Shown here one piece after another: positions 1,991-51,400 of a stretch of DNA of 64,000 nt (position 1 is the first letter of the stretch; each line of letters starts with the position of its first letter). Source of the stretch: Capitulum mitella (Eukaryota > Arthropoda > Thecostraca > Pollicipedomorpha > Pollicipedidae); contig CP099844.1 in assembly GCA_030062745.1 (NCBI GenBank), forward strand, positions 3,253,481 to 3,317,480, given 5' to 3'. The position numbers and the translations under genes were made by a program. The notes beneath the pieces are model-generated. The model was not told the origin of the DNA and did no database searches. It saw nothing but the letters and a program-made list of their open reading frames with translations.

Positions 1991-4091
1991 CCGTGGAGAG
2001 GACCGCCGCCCGCTCGAACGCGGTCCGGCCGGTCATGGGGTGGCCCACCTGGAATGCGGCGCTCTCGCTCTCTGCACGCGCCCGACGCGCCGGCCGGCCA
2101 CCAATTATTAATCACCGCCGGGTCGGCCACACACCTCGCGCGCCTCCCGAGCCGGACGGAGCGGACCGAGGCCCTGCCGAGACCCGGCCGAGGCAGCCAA
2201 CTCATGGAATCCCCAGCCGGCTGGTGCTCGCCTCTTAACCGGCTGGCAGAGTCCGTGGTGTAGGCTGGTGGAGTGGCAGGCCGTGGTGCAGTCTGGTGGA
2301 GTCCCTGGTGCGGAATATTTTCTGAGTATTTCTGAATGACACACAGCCTTCTGAAGTCCGACAAGATGAGCTGTTTTGTGATCGTGAAATTGTAAGAACA
2401 AAACGGCAAGCTAAACCGAAATGAAGCCGATTTCGTCTCCTGGCAATGTTTCGCAATGAGTTAAGATCCCTGAGAAACGATTATGGGCCCTCCCAAAGTG
2501 CATTAGTTTATCCCACAAATCTTTCCAGGAACAGATAAGTCACGTATTCCGTTCGTGCGGACTACATCGAAGGGCTTCTGTTCTCTTTGTGTCTTCCAGG
2601 GCGTTTTTCCATTATGATGCCCATTTGTCTCCCGTGCTCTCTCTCCCTCTCCACGTAAGGTCGAATGACAGGTCAGGCCGTGCCGCCAGCCGCCCCAGTT
2701 CCACTCCTCCCTCACAACCCGCGCCGACCGGCCGGACCACGTGACCGGCCGGCCGGCGCGGCGCCAGAGTCACGTGACGAGCGCGGGCGCCAGCTGGCGG
2801 CCCCTGGCCGGCGGGCGGGCGGGACCACCAGCGTCGACCGCCAGCCGCCTAATCGCGCTCTAATTTCTCTAATACTAACGCCCGGCCGGCATGCAAGGCT
2901 TTTTGCCGGTGCGGGCCCGGTGCGGCGGGTGGGGGACGGGGGTGGCGCGCGGCCCGGCCCCGGGGTCAGAGGTCAGGGGCTGCGCCAGCCGGGTCAGGCG
3001 CGTGAGCCTCTTCATTGGTCCGGGCCCGGTCGACAAAAAGCCTGATTGGCGGCTAGTGCCGTGTAAAAGTTCCTGCGCCGTGTCGGTAATGGTGGCGCTG
3101 ATTCGGTGGATTGTGCCGGCTTTTAAAATGATGATGGGGCGGTTTCAGGCGGTTTTTCCTCCAGAAGTTTAACAGGTGTAGCGGTTTGTTGAAACATAAT
3201 AGAATCGCATTTATATGTAGTTTCGTTTCGTCTCTGGTATTTGACGAGCTTGTTGGCAATGGCTGTTTTTGGGTAGGGGAAAAGCGTCATTTCCAACTCC
3301 ATGGCGCATGCAGTATGCAGCTAGTGATCAACAAGAATATCCCAGAATAGGCAATGGAGGTGTACGTAATACGTCAATGCTTCAGTGCTTCTTCCACGCG
3401 GTCACAATCTAACGCAGGCTGCAAACGTCAGTTTGGTGTCCAACAAGCATGCTTCTCCCCGAATTATTGCTGACACAACACTCATTTTGTCATTTCCTGT
3501 GTTGCTTTACGAAGGCCAATTCGGCGAGTAAATCGCATTCACAGGAGCTGGATCAGTGTCTGGAAAGGGAATCAGTTCCACCTTGTGGTTGCATCATTTA
3601 AATAGCCACATAACTGTCATTTCATTGACATTATCCTTTCCCACGCATATGGGCGAAACGATGACGTGATGAGTAAAATCTGGAAGTGAGATCAGAATAC
3701 CGAGCGACGTTGTAATCGAGTCTCACGACGTGACCTGATGCCACGTCATATTTGCAGTAAGACGGACTGTTATTTGAGTGCAGTTTGCCCGGCTGTGACG
3801 ATCACGTCTGCAACGTTTGTGAGTGTCGTGTCCCAGCGTTTCCAGGTGTGAAGTTGGTGCGTGCATTTCTCACGGGGTAGGCCGCCAACGCACTCAGTGG
3901 TCTACGCCAAGAGGAACCTTAAGGCCTGCCTCGTGGGCCATTTTCTGACCGGAAGGAATTCACAGGTCTGCCGCGTAACCCGACTTCTGACCCAGAGGAG
4001 CCCAGAGGCCCCTTCCTTGATCCAACTGCTGACCAAGAGGAGTTCTCGGGCTTTACGCCGTGACCGAACTGACCCTCCATGCGGCCGGCAG

Positions 4092-4260
4092 GCGCCGAGA
4101 CCAGCGGCAGCGATGAGGAGAGTGAGCCGGGCATCAGGCTGAGTCGCAAACAGCGCCGCTCGCGCACCACGTTCTCGGCCGAACAGCTCGAGGAGCTCGA
4201 GAAGGCGTTCGACGTCACCCAGTACCCGGACGTGTACACGCGCGAGAAGCTGGCGCTCAA
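4092..4260 (+). CDS. Pax3/7: Gene A exon: acidic lead-in and homeodomain residues 1-37
   Basis: The acceptor is GGCAG at 4087-4091. The exon begins with GC, completing a split Gly codon, the same phase and place as the homeodomain exon of gene B at 50517. It encodes [12 protein letters not shown], then homeodomain residues 1-36 and two bases of codon 37. The donor at 4261 is GTGAGT, preceded by AA; reading on gives an immediate in-frame TGA, so the exon must end here. Position 36 is Leu where the family usually has Gln. Confidence 0.88.
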
Positions 4261-7200
4261 GTGAGTCGCTTACGCCGGGCAAGTCCCAGAGACCGAAGTA
4301 AAATAAGAACGCAAAGGCAGAAACCGCAAAACACATGGGTCGCAACAGTTGGAGACCTGTCTGAAGGGGGAAGGATCGGATTGTCGTGTTAGCTCCGTAG
4401 TTCTTTCAACGCGTTACGAGACATGTCACATGTAATATCGAGCTATTTTTGTGACGTTCAAGCCTCCATGCCTATTAACCTGTATCTGCGTTTCGCTCAC
4501 GACGGATCTGTTGTGCCGCAGCAAAGAACCCATGTTTTCGTTGACACTATTTATGATTACCCATGAAATGCCAGCGGTATTAAGGATGCAGAAGAGGTGC
4601 GTTGTACCCCATTTCACCTGTTTGTGAATTCACCAGAAATCAGCTGAGCGACAGCTCCAGAGACCTACCCCCAGCGCGAAAGCCTCCTCCCGAAGTCCCG
4701 GACCCGCCGTCGGCCGTGCTTGGCCGACCGGCGCGGCCGGCGAGTCCCGGCCGCCGCGCTCCCTGTAGAGACCTGACGTGGCGCCGCCGCCGCCGGCAGG
4801 ACGACGCTGACCGAGGCCCGCGTCCAGGTGTGGTTCAGCAACCGGCGCGCCCGGCTCCGCAAACAGCTGAACGCCCAGCACCACGTGTCGTCAGGCCCGG
4901 CGGCGCCGGCGCCGGCCAGCACGGCGTCCTACGCCGGCTACGGCCCCGGCGCCGGCACGCCGGCCGCTCAGTACGGTCAGTAGTCTGCCGGAGCGGCCCA
5001 GAGCGCCGCTCTGAGCCACCCGACTACGCCGCTAGTGAAAGCGGCTATTTTTCCGATAAAAATTGGGAACGAGCGCATCCGTGAATGGGACCGTAGTGTA
5101 AAACGGGATTCACCTGTGTCCTGTTTTAACCGTTTAGAGTCCGATGTAATCAACCGACGAAGCCGATGTAATGAACATACAGCTCTGGCGCTGAATGATG
5201 TAGCTATGACATGGAAGTTCATGTTATAGAGTAGACTTCATACTCCTTTTAAGTCTCAATGAGTCGCGGAAATTTCCATTTCTGTGTGCACCTATTTAGC
5301 GCGAACGGTCGCGAGACATTGCTAAGCACTCACAAAGCCAAGATACATGCACGGATGCGAGAAGGACACTAGCCCGGCAAATGGACTCGAGTCATTGTAC
5401 CTCGAGGTTTTAGTGTGACACGAGGCAGATTGGTTTCAAACCATACGTGGCCAGGTAATCACTAACGGCCGGCTGGAAGGCACGCACGTCTCCATGTAAT
5501 TAGTTCAATTTCCGGATGCACAACACGCGGCGGCGGCCTTTTCCAATTCTCGGTGCAACTCATAAACCGACGACCGCATTTGCCGTAAATAAGGGCGGAC
5601 GTCGCCGCGGAGCAGTTAAAGCCCGGCTGAAACGCCGCCGCCCCATAAACCGCTGACGATTTGCCCCTCCATTCTGGCCGCCCCACCCGCGGTGACAAGG
5701 AGTGCCACAGGCGCACTTGACACCCGACCGGCGCCGCTGTCGAGAAACGCAGCGTCCCGCCCACTGGCGGCCACCCCCGACGGCGGGAACCCTACAAAAC
5801 TGCGCCACGACTGCGTGTCGGGAGTTGGGAGGAGACTCGCGTCTTTATCAGCGTGCCTCAGCCGCGGTTTGGGACTCGTCGTCTTTCCGGCGCCGCACCA
5901 GTCTTTGATTCCGAAGCAGTAACAGAGAAGTGCGTTTAGAGCGGGAAAGGGGAAGCCATCTTTGAGATGTAACTGTCAGCGCGATGTCACATAACTTGTG
6001 CGACCACTTTTCGAACCAAAGGAAACGCAGAGGTCACCTCAGAGAGTCATCCATCCTGTTCCCGCCATTCCCGCGCCAAAGGACACGGGCAAGGGAAGGG
6101 ACCACGGAAAAACTATGAAGATGGGAAGCAAGATCCCGTCGCAGGAAGACATTCCAGTGCCCCAGTCTCCTTGAGATACTGGAAAGGAAGTGCGCCTTAC
6201 TCGCAGGGATGTAGGACAAAGTATCCCTATACCATTACCTCACAGGGACCATCTTCTCACGGAGCATATGATGTCCTGCCCGAGGCAACTCATACAGCAC
6301 ATCAAAGAATGGAAAAAGGCTTGGTATTGGCGGTGACAGGCGAATGGATGCGTGCTAAAACCGTATCCGTTGCTGAATGCTACCGCTGATCCGAGTAGTT
6401 TCGCGCATTTCTATTGGCTTGAAAGTTTCTGAGCCTAAAACGGTTCCATGTAGCATTTAAAAACCTGGTAACGTTTGAGCTGCCTGTCTGTCCTGATATC
6501 GGAACTCTCGACGACCTTGAGCAATTTTGTTTAACGATTTGCGGACTTGATTGCTTGTTTATGTGGCCTCGTAGTCCATACTAATGATAGCTTTTCGCAT
6601 GAACCTTGACTGGGCCACCCAAGCTGACCGCAGTTTTACGTGCCGCTAGTCCACTCCACGCCGTCCAGTAGGCTGTCAGGGGCAGCGAAACCTTCCTGTC
6701 CTGCTCCAAAATTTGGTCAGTCTGCCCTGTGAGCTTGGCACCCGCTAAAAAAAAAGCGAACGTCGCTGCTCTTGATGTATGGGAGAATCTGAAGTGCAGA
6801 GGCGAAACGTGGAGCACATGACCATAAAAGAATCGTCGATCAGGCTGCTGCAATACTAACGCGCATTGTCTGCGTCCGTTCCAGGCCAAGCCTGGGCCCA
6901 GGCCAGCCCGCTCGGCTACCCCGAATACCTACAGAGCTCCTCCGCCCAGGTGTCGTCACCGGTCAACCAGTACGCCGGAATGACGTCATTTCCGGGCGCC
7001 GTGCACCCGGGCTCCGTGGCCGGCTGGTCGGGATTCTCGTCCGAGGCCAGGTACGGCTGCAGCCGGATGGCACCGGAGCACAAGGCAGGGAGGGTGAGAG
7101 ACAGAGAGAGAGAGAGAGAGGGAGAGAGAGGGGGAGAGAGAGAGAAAGGGATGAGGAGTTTTCGTTGTTGCTTTTATAATTTTGTTGCATTCTCCAATGA

Positions 7201-42484: not shown

Positions 42485-45400
42485 AATAATATAATATAAT
42501 GTAATGTAAATGATACAATATAATATAAAAAATGACATAAATAAAGGAACGAGATGATACAAATAATGTAGTCGTAAAACAGTAAGCTCTGAGACTAGTT
42601 CTTTAAGAACTTTGAGTTCCAAAACCATTTACTTCCGGATTCCACTGTTTTCTTTTCGAGTGTCGGATTCAGTACCCTAACTGCGATGACTGCAATATGG
42701 ATATGATGAATAAGCGATACAATACGAACATACAAGCAAACGTTTACAACATCGCAATACGAGATGGAAACTGGATGACTTGGCCGATCTCGGATAGCCA
42801 TTTAATCTCCCATGTTCGGGCTATTATCGAATTCATTGCATTCTTTCTTTCATTCTTTTAAAATACGCTTTGCGTTGAAATGGTGCACTGGCGTTGTTTT
42901 CTATTACATCTTAGGTGTATTATGCTTCATTAGCAGGGACCTTTACGGGGGGGGGGGGCAGGAGGGGCAGCTGCCCCTCAGCTCTGGGAAACATCTAACA
43001 TTAACCCTATGGCGCTGCATGGAAAGAAACGAGGTAAAAATCACGTTTGCCTCCTCACCCCATCTCCACAGAGATTCCACCGCTCCTGTTCATGAGTGCC
43101 TTTTTATGGGAGCTGCGCATGAAACGATGTGCTGAAAATTTTATTGATCGTAATGATTCTTGTGATGGTTTTTCATGCTTAAATTTTAGAAAAACTAATT
43201 AGTTACCAATCTACACAATTGGCGGAGCTTTATTCGCGAGAACCTGTTTATTTCCAAAATATGCTATTTTTTCGAACTTTTTGAGGTTCCTGTTATTACT
43301 TACGTCTGTACAAGCTAATTCTGCCATTTTCTACCCATTCTGAGTAATTCATGGTCAATTTTGACGGTGGTACATTTTGGCTCACTACAGTTATTCGTGA
43401 CCTGACCTCAGGTCAATGGCTGGAAGTCATTGATACTTTGCCCAATGACGTCAACTAGATGTCTGCTTCACTCTACACTAAAAATGTTATAAAATGTTCC
43501 GCCAATTTCCGAAAAAAACGACGATATGTCTTAAAAATGGGCTTGACCTTAGGTCAATGACCTGGAAAATCCCGAAAAATCTGAGATAGAGGATTTGTTG
43601 CATCTATCACGATTACTAATTCCTGAAAGTATTATTGAGATATCTCGTTTTGTGAAAAAGTTACAGGGCGCTAAACGTTTTTGGACATAAGTCTGTTTGA
43701 CCTGACCTAGGTCAGGCACCTGACCTGACCTGAGGTCAAAATTTTGACACGAGATGTAAAATTCATGAAGCAAAAGGTACACGACGTTTCGTGACTCTGT
43801 GTTTGTTGGTTCTCTCGCAATCCCAGAAAAACCTCAGGGGGGCCAGTTAACTGCCCCCCCCTCAGTCGGAGACGGGTTAAGTGGTACTTTCAGATCGTAG
43901 TAAGGTCCTACATAGCAGTATTACCTAATTTCACTCTTCTGAACTGAATGGTAGGAGCGCCATTTTTGTGTGAAAATAGGAACTGCTCCGACCACTACAA
44001 TGCTTTATGGCTCAAAGTTTTTTTAGTCCGTTCACTACTTACCTCAAAGGATTTCGTGTTAAATTCACTGGTTTGGGGTGTTCAGTCAATATGAGGATAT
44101 GGCAACAGACTCAAAAATAGTAAGGTAACCTTCTCGCTGATTTTTATCCTATTTCTTTCTCCATTTTGGGACCCTAGAAATTCCGTGCCGTAATATATCT
44201 CAATTGGCAGAAGTATTAATTGTAAATAAATTGTAGAAACACTGCCACGTGGTTGTTCCTTCATCTTTGGAAACAGATATAACCACGGTGAAGTAAATTC
44301 GCTTCTCCACCAGTGTCACCAAAAAGATGCCTTTTTGCTATGACTTCCTGACGCACATTGATGTGATGTTTTATGTACGTTAGTCCAGATAACGTGTAAG
44401 ATTCACCAATTTATCAATAAAACCCCAAAACAAGGGCAAATCACTGCGCTGGTCTCCACAGACTGGAACAGGGACGGCCGTCGTCGAATTTTTCTGGGCG
44501 GTGAGCGTTCCTCTCGCCGCAGCAATCGCCTGTCCCGCGGCGTCCGGCCGTCTGACGGCGACATCAGCTGACTGCCGCGTTCCCCTCGGCAGGCCAGGGC
44601 CGGGTCAACCAGCTGGGCGGCGTGTTCATCAACGGCCGACCGCTGCCGAACCACATCCGGCTGAAGATCGTGGAGATGGCGTCGGCCGGCGTGCGGCCGT
44701 GCATGATTTCGCGGCAGCTGCGCGTGTCGCACGGCTGCGTCTCCAAGATCCTGAACCGGTACCAGGAGACGGGCAGCATCCGGCCGGGCGTCATCGGCGG
44801 CTCCAAGCCGCGCGTCGCCACGCCCGAGATCGAGTCCAAGATCGAGGAGTACAAGAAGGAGAACCCGGGCGTGTTTAGCTGGGAGATCAGGGACCGGCTG
44901 ATCAAGGTGAGGCCGCCGGGCCGCGGCGGCCGGTCTCTGCGCCGAGGCAGGCAGCGGTCCAGAACAAACTACAGCCACCGAACGGAACGCAAACACTGAG
45001 GTTCGCACACTCAGAGTTGTACGGCAGCTTGTTTCGGTTCGTTCTGTGTTTGGTTTAGATACATCCTTGACGCAAACGAAAAGTTTTTCCACCACGCGGT
45101 CCATAAATCAGCTCCAGGCTATTTTGAAACGGAAACGGCGAATGTCCTGTGGGATCCAGACGTCACTGATTAGACTCTACAGATCATGTCACGACCTTCG
45201 AGCATGGGTCACATCGGTTCACCTGGTGAACGCTGTTGATGCATTTACTGTGCATTTGATGTTTATCAGCCGGGAGCTCATCAAACACCCATTCACCCAC
45301 CACATGGATACGGCAAAGCTGGTCTGACAATATTCAGAGTCCCGTTGGCTGTAGCTGTTGGTTCATATGCTTACAGACTTAACGTACTTGTCAAATCCCA

Positions 45401-48400
45401 TGGAATTACAGCACATGAATTACAGATCGATTTGCGCGAAGTAAAATAGTTTTCCGCCTTCCATGTGATGTAAAATTTGTTACTTCAAGAGCATTTGCAC
45501 CACGTGATGTGGCTTGGCTTCGAGGGGCACGCATGATGTTGGCCGATGTCGTTTCAGGAGGGTCTTTGTGACGAAGAGACGGCGCTGTTTCAGGAGGGCC
45601 TCTGCGACCGTAACTCGGCCCCCTCAGTCAGCTCCATCTCGCGCATCCTGCGCGGCGGCTCGGCCGGAGACGAGCTCAGGAAGGATCACAGCATCGACGG
45701 CATCCTGGGCGAGTCGGCAGGTACGTCGGCGTCTGGGTGCGTCGCGGGATCGGTGCCGACCCTCTGACAGAATGCAACACCTGCCAGGCAGAGTAAAGTG
45801 CCTCTAGCATCCTGCGACAATCGTCGGCTGCTGCTATTATTCAGCTGTGTTGAGGGCATTGATGTGACAGTTTTCCATCCGAGTATGGTCGAACAGGATA
45901 TTAGGTTTTTATGTTCAGTTTTTTAAAGCTGGTTTTAGCCTTTTAACTTAAGGCTTTTAAGTTCAGATTTAAGGTTTCTTATCGCTTTACCTTTAACTTC
46001 GCTTTTGAATAAAGGAGACAGACAGAATATTTATTTCTTCTACGAAAAAGCATCCTGTGATATATCTATCAGCCAACAAACTTGCAATCCCAGGTGCATG
46101 GCGAATGCTGTTATCTCGTATTAGAAATGCTGTAGTTTTCACCATGACATGTTTGGCCTCTCTAGCGGATGACGTCAGATGCAGGAGACGCATTTGTTGG
46201 TGTTCTCAAACCGACGCATGCGAGAAATGTGCAGTCACTACATTACGAGAGGATAGAGAATGATGTTGACAACATGATTACATGACATCAGCGTGCATGG
46301 GTGGGAATGAAAATATTCCAGATAAAAGGGACGTACCTAGACGGATTTACAACAATGCCTATCTTAATGGCTCCTTACACTGGGATAAAAAGCTGTACAT
46401 GGGACTGAAACAGATGCTTAGCTGATATTAAGGAAAAACTTTCGTGAACAACTTATTTTATAAAATCGCTTCGAAATCAGGCAAATGGATTAGGACAGTA
46501 CATTGCAGGTCGTCGTCTGCACCGATTGATTCTTCTGCCTGCCTACGTTTTCTGCACGCCAGTCGCGTCGGAAGGTAGCTGCGTTCGATGAGGCGCCCGG
46601 CCTGTTCTGCACCAAACGATCCGCGGCAGCTCCGAGCATGTTTCACGGCTAACAAGACAAGCATCGGAGGCCATAAACAATGTCAGCCTTCACAGTCGGC
46701 CGGGCTGCACCGCCCAGCCTCCGCCGCGGCCGCCGCGTGTCTGTAACCCGTGTCAGACGGGCCGCGTTCCTGTAACCCGTGTCAGACGGGCCGCGTGCCT
46801 GTAACCCGTGTCAGACGGGCCGCGTGCCTGTAACCCGTGTCAGACGGGCCGCGTGCCTGTAACCCGTGTCAGACGGGCCGCGTGCCTGTAACCCGTGTCA
46901 GATGGGCCGCGTGACAATAACCTGTGTCAGACGGGCCGCGTGCCTGTAACCCGTGTCAGACGGGCCGCATGCCTGTAACCCGTGTCAGACGGGCCGCGTG
47001 TCTGTGATCCCTGTCAGACGGGGCCAGGAGCCGGGCACGGCCGGACAGCGGATGAGCGCGGGCGTCTTCTGAACGAGTCATCGCCACTGACTTACATGTA
47101 CAAATGTCTTTCAGGTTGGTAGGGGTGGAGCCATTCTAGATCATTTCCTTTCGTTTAAGACTATGGAGTTCACGTTAAAATGATGCGGTTTGCTGGGTGC
47201 CGCATTAACTGGATATTGTCCCTGGATACACCTGTAAGTACCAACGCCACCGCACTATCGTGAACGACACCAATATAGTCCAAACCACCACCATCTTCAT
47301 CACCACGAAATTCTCCACCGTAACTGCCAATAAAACTGCCAGCCTGAACAACATTATTGCAACCACTGCCATATCGCCGACAGCGCAGCAGCAGCCCTCC
47401 ACCAACATTCCTGGACCCCATTCATGGCTGCTTGTGCCACCACAACCGTCGCCACCACCACCATCACCGCACCGTCGCCACAAACGCCACTAAAAACGTC
47501 CAACACTCGCACCGCCGCCTTCGCCGCCGCCGCCGCCGCCGCCGCTGCGACCACCACAATCACCACCATGACCGCCTCCGCTGCCGCCGCCGCCGCCGCC
47601 GCCGCCGCCGCTGCCTCCAATCCCTATTCCGGTCATGTTCGCCGGCCGTTTGTAATGAGCGCTCCCTGCTGGTCGGGCAATGCAGCAGTCGGGCCGGCCG
47701 CCGCCGCCGCGCGCGCGCGCACACCGGATATTAATTACCAGCTCGCGCCGACGCCGGCTCCAGCGCGCGCCGCCGGCCGGCGCGCGGGCGACAAAAACGG
47801 CGCGCCGCGGTCGGCCCGGCCCGCCGAGGTGTAATCTAATTAGGTGCCTGGGTGGCGGCCGACTTCTGAACAGCCGGCCGCTGATTTTTCACATTCCCGG
47901 CAGCCGCCCGCCGGGAATTCCGCCGATAAGAAGCGCCAGTGAAAGTATGCGGCGCCCCGCGCGAGAAATACCGTGCGCTGCTCGTCACGTTCGGGAAGAG
48001 GTGCTCGCGCTAGGCGTTGCCGTTCAAGCGCTCGTCGAAACAGGCTTCGTCAAAGCAATTTCACCGACGTGGCTGTATATCGGACTGTCGAAAATGGCCC
48101 GTCTCGTTAGCAGCATCATATTTTTTCCAAGCGAGAAACGGCCGCAACCACGAACGGCCACTGTTGACATGATCGGCACTCTCGTTTTCATTACGTAAAG
48201 GAAAGAAGTTTTATTGGATAGTGTCGCAATCATTCTGGTCATGACGCCACATAATAAGATGCTAAAGCACTGCACATTTACCTGGTTGCTACCTGCCAGA
48301 CGGCAACCAGGTAAATGTGTAGGATCCTTGTACTGCATGCCGGGCCGGTGTAAGACCGCACCTATTGGACGTACTGACCGTACGTGTTGGTCTGAAACAA

Positions 48401-51400
48401 ATCCGGCACTGCCTGCCAGACTGCACGTATTGGTCTGAAACAGATCCTGCACTGCCTGACGGGCCGCACGTACTGGTCTGAAACAAATCCCGCACTGCCT
48501 GCCGGACCGCACGTATTGGTCTGGGACAGTCCTCCACTGCCTGCCGGGCCGCACGTATTGGTCTGAAACAAATCCCGCACTGCCTGCCGGACCGCACGTA
48601 TTGGTCTGGGACAGTCCTCCACTGCCTGCCGGGCCGCACGTATTGGTCTCTGTACAGCCTGTCGGGTCGGTCTGGGCGGGCCGTGTGCTACCTGTTGAGT
48701 CGGTCTCTGTAGGCCCTTGTACTGCATGCCGGGCCGGTGTGGGGCGGTCCCTGTACTGCATGCCGGGCCGGTGTGGGGCGGTCCCTGTACTGCATGCCGG
48801 GCCGGTGTGGGGCGGTCCCTGTACTGCATGCCGGGCCGGTCCCTGTACTGCATGCCGGGCCGGTGTGGGGCGGTCCCTGTACTGCATGCCGGGCCGGTGT
48901 GGGGCGGTCCCTGTACTGCATGCCGGGCCGGTGTGGGGCGGTCCCTGTACTGCATGCCGGGCCGGTGTGGGGCGGTCCCTGTACTGCATGCCGGGCCGTG
49001 TGGGGCCGGTCCCTGTACTGCATGCCGGGCCGGTGTGGGGCGGTCCCTGTACTGCATGCCGGGCCGGTCCCTGTACTGCATGCCGGGCCGGTGTGGGCCG
49101 GTCCTTTGCATGCCGGACCGGTGTGCCGTCGTATGCCGGGCCGGTGTGGGCCGGTCCCTGTACTGCATGCCGGGCCGGTCCCTGTACTGCATGCCGGGCC
49201 GGTGTGCGGCCGGTCCCTGTACTGCATGCCGGGCCGGCGCGGGGCGGCGGCGCACGCGCGGCCGGCCGCCGTGCCGCCCACGGCCGCCTCCCGCCGACGG
49301 GAGCGGCCATAAATCGCGTGCCTCCAGAGGGGGTCCCCCGGCCGCCTAATGCCGCCATCCGCAGCCAGCGCACGTCGCCGTCATCGGTCAGCGATCGATG
49401 ACAGCGGCACAATGTTAATTGCGCCGATTTAAAATGTAATTGAGCTTGCAGTGGCCGGTGGGGTTCGGCCGGCGGTGGTGTCGTCGGAGGGCCCATTTGT
49501 CCGGGCGGCGGCTCCGGTAGCACAGAGGAGGCCTCTCTCGCCGGCGGCGCACCCTAATTAGCCTGTTTGTTCAGAGGGAATTCATTACGCATGGCTTGCT
49601 GGTGAGGCTCGAGCGAGCGTGGCGCCCGGAAAGGACTGATCTTGGCTCAGAATCAAGCTGACTCGGGGACAGGACTGAATCGACCTTAGTTATATTGGTC
49701 GATTAAAATTAGATAGGTTGATTAAACAGGTTAGGACAGGGGTGTAGCCAGGATGTAACCTAGGAGGGGGTCAGGACAAACCTGACCCCTCAAAACTTAA
49801 ACTCCTTGTGTTTCGGTTACTTCATTTTCCAGTTGCGGAAATTTTTATTTATTCTCGCGTTTGGTGGGTGAAGAAACGCCATAATTTCAACCCAAGGGGA
49901 GGGAATCATGACATTCTTGCCACCCTTACCCCCTTGGCTACGCCCCTGAGTCATGACCAGGATGAAAACCAGAATAACGGTCCTGACAGGCGGCCGCATT
50001 AGACGAAATTTGTTACCGCTGCCGATTTATGCCTCGAGAGACAACAGCGCCAGGTATTCAGAGTGCAACAGTGTCAGGCGCCTGCAGCGATGTTTTTTCC
50101 AGGCCGGGTTTCGGGGACTACCGTGACTTGTTGTGCCGCCTCAGGCGACTGCAATGACCGATTCCTTCCTCAGGCGACTGTAGCGTCACGTTTTGCTCCT
50201 TCAGGTGATTGAAGCGGCCGGATTCTCTCCCTCAGGTGACTGTCTCAGGCAACTGCAGTGACCAGCCTATGCCCCCAGGCGACTGTAGAGCGTAGTGACC
50301 GTTTATAATATAACAGGTCACTACGCTCCGCCAGGCGAGCGTAGTGACCTGTTTATACCCTCAGGCGACTGAGGTGACCCGTTCCTGCTCTCGGGTGACT
50401 GCTGTAACCCGCATCTTCTTTTAGGCGACTGCAATAATCCTTATCTGCCCTCAGGCGGCTATAGTGACCCATTTCTGCCCGTTCAGGCGACTGAGGTGAC
50501 CTGTTTCTGCCTCCAGGCGACTGCAGCGACACGGAAAGTGAGCCGGGCCTGACGCTGAAGCGGAAGCAGCGGCGGTCCCGGACCACCTTCACCGCTGAGC
50601 AGGTGGAGACCCTGGAGAAGAGCTTCGAGAAGACCCAGTACCCAGACGTCTACACTCGCGAGGAGCTCGCGCAGAAGACGAAGCTCAGTGAGGCTAGGGT
50701 GCAGGTGAGAGCAGACTTCTGTAGTTCGCCGCTAATCTGAGGATGCGGCGCATCCCCGAGACCGTGGAATTCTACCGATTTCTGGCCGGTGAACCCAGAA
50801 CTGCGACGGGCGGAGGACGCCACAATCTTCCGGAACAACTGCATCGAGGGCGAACGCGGCCGTGAAGTTTTCAATGCACGGCGCAACACCTTGTCAGATC
50901 GGACTGATCAAAGCCCGTGCCTGTCACCTCGCAGGATTTATGATTTGTCCGGGGCCTGAAAAAACATGGCCCGTGATGAAGTGCAAGTCCCCGTGCAAAC
51001 CTGTTCGTCTGAGCCCGCTGACCTGAGTCTTGTCGCAGGTGTGGTTTAGCAACCGCCGGGCGCGCTGGCGGAAGCAAATGGGAAACCAGCAGGCGGGCAG
51101 CTTCGGCTCGCTGGCCTTCCCCGTCTCGTACCCCGCCGGCCAGTACGGGGGCCTGGCGGAGTCCGGCATGCAGCATCACGGTCAGTGGCCTCCCAGTCAA
51201 CCGAGCCTGTGATGGAGACCGATGGTCACTCTGTACAGAGTCAGGAACGCGGCTGCGTGCTTCTAGTCTTCAGCGCCGCTCTCGGTGCTGATGCCACTCC
51301 GTTATTAGGAGTGACAAGTTCCGTAGCTATGCTTTACGCATTCAGTCGTTTTAATTAGACCATTTGCCAGGTGTCGCGCCATTCGAGCGGTTCTTCGACG

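Follow-up and report, generated by a model that had tools for sequence, protein, structure and literature searches.

The stretch of Capitulum mitella DNA analysed here, referred to below as the window, is 64,000 nucleotides long and contains on its + strand a gene that encodes both a paired domain and a homeodomain, with a degenerate minisatellite running up to the start of the homeodomain exon. Most of the Pfam PAX domain (PF00292, E 3.9e-63) is encoded by an exon at 44593-44906, which is followed by a GTGAGG donor. Exon 3, which begins at 45558 or 45594 and ends at 45720, encodes the end of the paired domain together with the octapeptide-like HSIDGILG, and closes in phase 1 at a G/GTACGT donor (a slash marks a junction here and below). 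Beyond a 4.8-kb intron 3 (45721-50516), which carries the array at its 3' end, the homeodomain exon (50517-50704; PF00046, E 2.6e-16) starts as CAG/GC GAC TGC AGC GAC, which fits the phase 1 end of exon 3, and ends with ...EARVQ. The homeodomain is split by an intron at VQ/VWF, and further coding sequence starts at 51039 on the + strand. All of the exon ends were placed from the sequence, by frame and homology, and the exons splice in silico into a single open frame. The matches to PF00292 and PF00046 are both above cut-offs, and the top PDB matches are to Drosophila Paired (1pdn, E 6.4e-71; 1fjl, E 2.4e-27). We take HSIDGILG to be the octapeptide and the gene to belong to the Pax3/7 (paired/gooseberry) class, for it has the paired domain, the octapeptide and the complete paired-type homeodomain by which that class is recognized.

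Tandem repeats with a period of at least 7 make up 6.5% of the window; in intron 3 their share is 28.7%. Three more homogeneous minisatellites are listed within this intron by TRF, at 46732-47022, 48376-48649 and 48718-49247 (29, 43/85 and 34 bp, respectively), and a MITE-like insertion, so labelled by eye, lies just upstream of the array at 49737-49948 with ends CAGGGGTGTAGCCA and TGGCTACGCCCCTG. There were no matches to RNA families at gathering thresholds and no tRNAs. The array itself (50075-50515, + strand) consists of about 14 intronic units of about 30 bp, laid out as CAG, then GCGACTGCAGTGACC, then a pyrimidine spacer, with an 18-bp core inside the ~30 bp, such that a branch-like TGAC, followed by a tract and then by an AG, is present in many units. 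In-register comparison yields 12 copies over 50032-50535, of which the outermost (50032) is doubtful and the last is the exon copy; 6 of the 11 spacings between them are 29-32 nt. TRF reports a period of 30 with 6.6 copies at 50332-50530 (68% matches) and, with looser penalties, 12.7 copies at 50139-50530 (53% matches). A search for CAGGCGACTGCAGYGAC with up to 3 mismatches returns 11 matches window-wide, 9 of them within 50075-50530 including the exon copy, where 0.25 would be expected in the whole shuffled window. At a shift of 30 the self-identity of 50120-50516 is 0.403; the mean best value in shuffles is 0.311, and 0/300 shuffles reach 0.403. The in-register copies, TRF, the pattern search and the shuffles thus confirm the first-pass annotation's description of an array that runs up to the homeodomain exon. 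Its count of about 15 units holds up as a figure near 14, for units that are ~30 bp long and quite diverged and an array whose start coordinate is approximate.

Fifteen acceptor positions, including the real one, can be assigned: 50077, 50102, 50144, 50173, 50204, 50235, 50248, 50278, 50334, 50364, 50394, 50424, 50454, 50486 and 50516. The position at 50102 is doubtful, the text downstream of it not being GCGACTG, and the one at 50394 has lost its AG. An AG is present at 13 of the 14 upstream positions, a fraction biased toward AG retention in that most positions were chosen from a list of AGs, and it is kept in 5 of the 6 evenly spaced units (50334-50486); many units do offer, as had been noticed earlier, a pyrimidine tract followed by CAG/GCGACTG. 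The final unit, CAG/GCGACTGCAGCGAC, comprises the real acceptor (the AG ending at 50516) and the first ~14 bases of the exon. Of the 17 bases compared at the exon boundary, 14 of them exonic, the written unit consensus matches 16, and likeness to the preceding unit fades by about +14 inside the homeodomain exon. The proposal that the array ends with a unit formed by the exon's own 3' splice site and first codons is therefore sound.

The putative working 3' splice site (50497-50516, + strand) is made up of TGAC, a pyrimidine tract and CAG. The A of its branch-like TGAC (50499) precedes the acceptor G by 17 nt, an interval free of AG, and a second candidate branch, GTGAC, lies 49 nt upstream of the real acceptor (an automatic pick under a tie rule that favours distance). 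Unit-by-unit scoring, a check suggested in the first-pass annotation, was carried out with an approximate 3' splice-site matrix, with percentiles taken against the 3407 AGs on the window's + strand. For the real acceptor the score is 6.20, at the 99.6th percentile. Scores among the 13 upstream AG units run from -3.91 up to 6.22, with 8 of the 13 above the 95th percentile and those at 50102 and 50204 scoring 6.22 and 6.18. With several upstream units scoring as high as the real site, it is not assured that the array is fully silent. When translation is continued from each of the 13 upstream unit AGs in the phase that exon 3 dictates, all 13 run into an in-frame stop. Among the 29 AGs in 50070-50516, just 50516 and 50495 stay open into the homeodomain; the latter lies outside the unit acceptors, ranks at the 22nd percentile and would add GDLFLPP if used. 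The earlier idea that some units could give N-terminal variants of the linker is thus not supported for simple unit extension, and use of an upstream unit would yield a stop-containing mRNA. Cassette use of array segments, by way of donor-like GTGA sites within the array, is conceivable.

The acceptor and first codons of exon 3 (TTTCAG/GAGGGYCTYTGYGAC) are themselves present twice, at 45555-45608, 36 nt apart and in frame. The copies read TTTCAG/GAGGGTCTTTGTGAC and TTTCAG/GAGGGCCTCTGCGAC, with TTTCAG/GAGGG at 45557/45558 and 45593/45594, and this duplication is what leaves the start of exon 3 ambiguous between 45558 and 45594. Over the first 15 coding bases they differ at 3 sites, each a synonymous third position (chance 0.022, calculated after the fact), which suggests that the two may both be translated. 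The splice-site score is higher for the upstream copy (1.70) than for the downstream copy (-1.43); use of the first acceptor would place a 12-residue insert in the paired domain, where the Drosophila Paired chain has none. By a window-wide null, this pair is matched by 5.6% of 4000 random positions and is not significant.

Within the array there is also a hairpin (50312-50353), in which unit text recurs in inverted orientation. Its 17-nt arms are 100% complementary and 8 nt apart. The predicted fold has 19 pairs, and the AG of unit 50334 falls in the loop. Folding of 50270-50380 gives a z of -5.95, with 0/200 shuffles as strong, and RNA folding of the whole array is not unusual (z -0.71; 23/100 shuffles fold as well). 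The inverted unit text as a whole extends over 50288-50353, and this strong hairpin is perhaps the product of a template-switch event. In the one haplotype covered here, units 50364 and 50486 are identical at 18/18 nt. Taken together with the inverted copy, this identity suggests that an array that seems old by its divergence has yet been rearranged recently.

Minisatellites that supply splice sites have been encountered in other genes. A human interferon-induced gene, IFI6/6-16, reportedly contains a minisatellite with multiple splice donor sites (an observation attributed to Turri and the year 1995); this minisatellite also supplies many splice sites, but they are donors and the gene is another one. 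In intron 18 of human ABCA7, a VNTR is reported to consist of 25-bp units, each beginning with the two bases that form the exon 18 splice donor; its expansion increases skipping of exon 19, and one unit can be retained via a cryptic donor, with retention described as unchanged with VNTR length (PMC5954066). That VNTR lies on the donor side and is highly length-variable, at ~12 to 427 units, whereas the Pax3/7 array lies on the acceptor side and is diverged. The amphioxus "mirages", reported from Adh3, the globins BflGb6 and BflGb9, TnC and PGBD5, are described as minisatellite-like tandem duplications across an exon-intron boundary in which many units keep splice signals, and these boundary arrays are reported without disturbance of regular splicing (PMC3087553, PMC3902484). 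The Pax3/7 array has both hallmarks: its tandem unit spans an exon-intron boundary (CAG plus ~14 exon bases, at a boundary set by frame and homology), and its units keep splice signals (the AG at 13 of 14 partly AG-chosen positions, and at 5 of 6 in the evenly spaced set). Like the Pax3/7 array, BflGb6 duplicates the 3' end of an intron with the 5' part of the exon, and the units of amphioxus Adh3 are given as 10-72 bp, as compared with ~14 degenerate copies of a ~30-bp unit in Pax3/7 (PMC3087553, PMC3902484). Tandem duplication has been proposed more generally as a route to novel introns and splice sites, through segments that carry splice signals and in some cases lie at exon-intron boundaries (PMC2891723, PMC2812944), and NMD has been proposed as a backup for duplicated splice segments (PMC2891723). 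The cases reported there involve intron gain or changed exon structure, whereas the Pax3/7 array shows no new intron. Among the papers that the literature searches listed, none deals, by its title or the opening part of its abstract, with an array of this type in a Pax gene. The boundary minisatellite is thus an already known type, represented by the amphioxus mirages and by human ABCA7, and the Pax3/7 array is a further case.

We think it likely that the Pax3/7 array is a "mirage"-type minisatellite that was seeded from the exon boundary, is spliced at its last unit and is tolerated as near-neutral. About 30 bp across the boundary between intron 3 and the homeodomain exon (TGAC, tract, CAG and ~14 coding bases) would have been duplicated tandemly and repeatedly in the intronward direction, the exon end being held fixed by coding constraint and the intronic units being free to drift, recombine and at times invert. 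Splicing would most likely occur at the last unit, since this is the sole unit acceptor with an open homeodomain frame, has a TGAC of its own at a distance of 17 nt and no AG in between, and lies next to the exon. If an upstream unit were used now and then, stop-containing mRNAs would result, and because these would be expected to be degraded the array may be tolerated at little cost.

One observation goes against neutral drift, which does not predict that the AG-centred core should be better conserved than the rest of the unit. Among 12 anchored intronic units, positions -3 to +7 (with 0 the G of AG) are more conserved than the spacer, an excess reached in 0/2000 permutations, and the same test gives 115/2000 for the 6 evenly spaced units and 70/2000 for 5 of these; the value of 115/2000 is corrected for the choice of block, and an earlier 45/20000 for the six regular units used a block picked by eye. 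This conservation is not specific to the acceptor, since the units preserve exon bases +1 to +7 about as well as the AG. In those spacer columns of the six regular intronic units where pyrimidines are the majority, 15/25 changes stay pyrimidine, and transitions make up 13/17 of the changes elsewhere in the unit; with 12 units the corresponding figures are 30/55 and 26/36. Pyrimidine retention is therefore no higher than the share of transitions elsewhere and gives no sign of selection on the tracts. Overall, these comparisons point only weakly to selection on the core. They bear on a functional explanation of the array, by which its branch-tract-AG modules would be decoys that compete for U2AF/U2, slow or divert splicing and so set Pax dosage, with copy number as the means of tuning. 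The frequency with which the AG has been retained, the high scores of 8 of the 13 upstream AG units, the stops that would follow from the use of any of the 13, and the more conserved core would all suit such a role, as would the skipping of the next exon that rises with expansion of the ABCA7 donor VNTR (PMC5954066). We nevertheless consider a decoy function unlikely: conservation of the core reaches exon base +7, farther than an acceptor requires; spacer pyrimidine content is not specially preserved; the excess is weak with evenly spaced units (115/2000); splicing is normal in the reported amphioxus cases (PMC3087553, PMC3902484); and use of the ABCA7 cryptic-donor unit is reported as unchanged with VNTR length (PMC5954066). 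A more elaborate version, for which we see a rather slim chance, would make of the array a maintained bank of complete 3' splice-site modules that traps the splicing machinery to a degree set by copy number, diverts some transcripts to stop-containing forms and sets the level of Pax3/7, with one unit hidden in the hairpin loop.

The direction of seeding can be approached through a Pax3/7 paralogue in the same window. Its homeodomain exon (4092-4260, + strand; PF00046, E 6.9e-11; predicted ends) has the acceptor CAG/GC, which is compatible with phase 1, itself a predicted phase, and occupies the same apparent intron position as in the focal gene; no 30-bp array was found before this exon, including by TRF with looser penalties. 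The motif SD.ESEPG occurs in both window genes, focal and paralogous, and in Drosophila Paired, and the units of the array carry AGYGAC, which matches the conserved SD codons. The presence of SD.ESEPG in Drosophila Paired as well makes it probable that these codons are older than the array. On this comparison the boundary, too, is probably older than the array, and seeding of the array by the exon is favoured over supply of the exon by the array, given an array-free paralogue whose intron seems to sit at the same position, with a phase that is compatible. The first-pass annotation had allowed for either direction; its suggestion that the exon boundary seeded the array is the one that we would keep, and the converse, that the array supplied the acceptor, is disfavoured by the array-free paralogue and the shared SD.ESEPG. 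If the array nevertheless came first, the acceptor and first codons would have come from one of its units or been replaced by it, by intron sliding or array-to-exon conversion. The residues between the junction and SD do differ, being GDC in the focal gene and GAETSG in the paralogue, and so short a stretch could be overwritten, but we judge this order of events quite unlikely in view of the paralogue's array-free intron at the apparently identical position and of units that contain the AGYGAC of the conserved SD codons.

The intron of the paralogue has a degenerate 42-bp periodicity of its own (3904-4049, + strand), which was seen by self-comparison (0/300 shuffles), was listed neither by TRF nor by the repeat search, and stops ~40 nt before the paralogue acceptor. 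Homology between the 30-bp array and the end of the paralogue intron was considered and rejected, as 118/300 shuffles score as well. The resemblance of the 5'-most unit, CAGGCGCCTGCAGCGATG, to a fossil of a paralogue-like exon start is suggestive only. The paralogue homeodomain (4092-4260, 4800-4980) is apparently split at LALK/TT, unlike the VQ/VWF of the focal gene, and the position of the intron inside the homeodomain thus differs between these neighbouring Pax3/7 paralogues.

That an array should touch an exon is not in itself striking at this level of repeat coverage, which under uniform placement gives a ~0.52 chance that one of the 11 listed exon boundaries is in contact with an array; in a single-shift test, moreover, the 20/30 matches at the homeodomain boundary are equalled by 8.4% of 4000 random positions and are not significant. 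Both figures would accord with a minisatellite that arose by chance in a repeat-rich intron, abuts the exon and resembles its text by accident, an explanation that is made very improbable by the consensus match to a largely exonic boundary text and by the continuation of the period up to the exon.

Viewed as a tolerated minisatellite seeded from the exon boundary, the Pax3/7 array provides a natural case of a splice boundary that has been copied over and over with no evident harm to the reading frame, in a gene that has a second boundary duplication at exon 3 and with a paralogue in the same 64 kb for comparison. It is relevant to the questions of where new introns and alternative acceptors come from and of how the spliceosome chooses among a dozen near-identical 3' splice sites.
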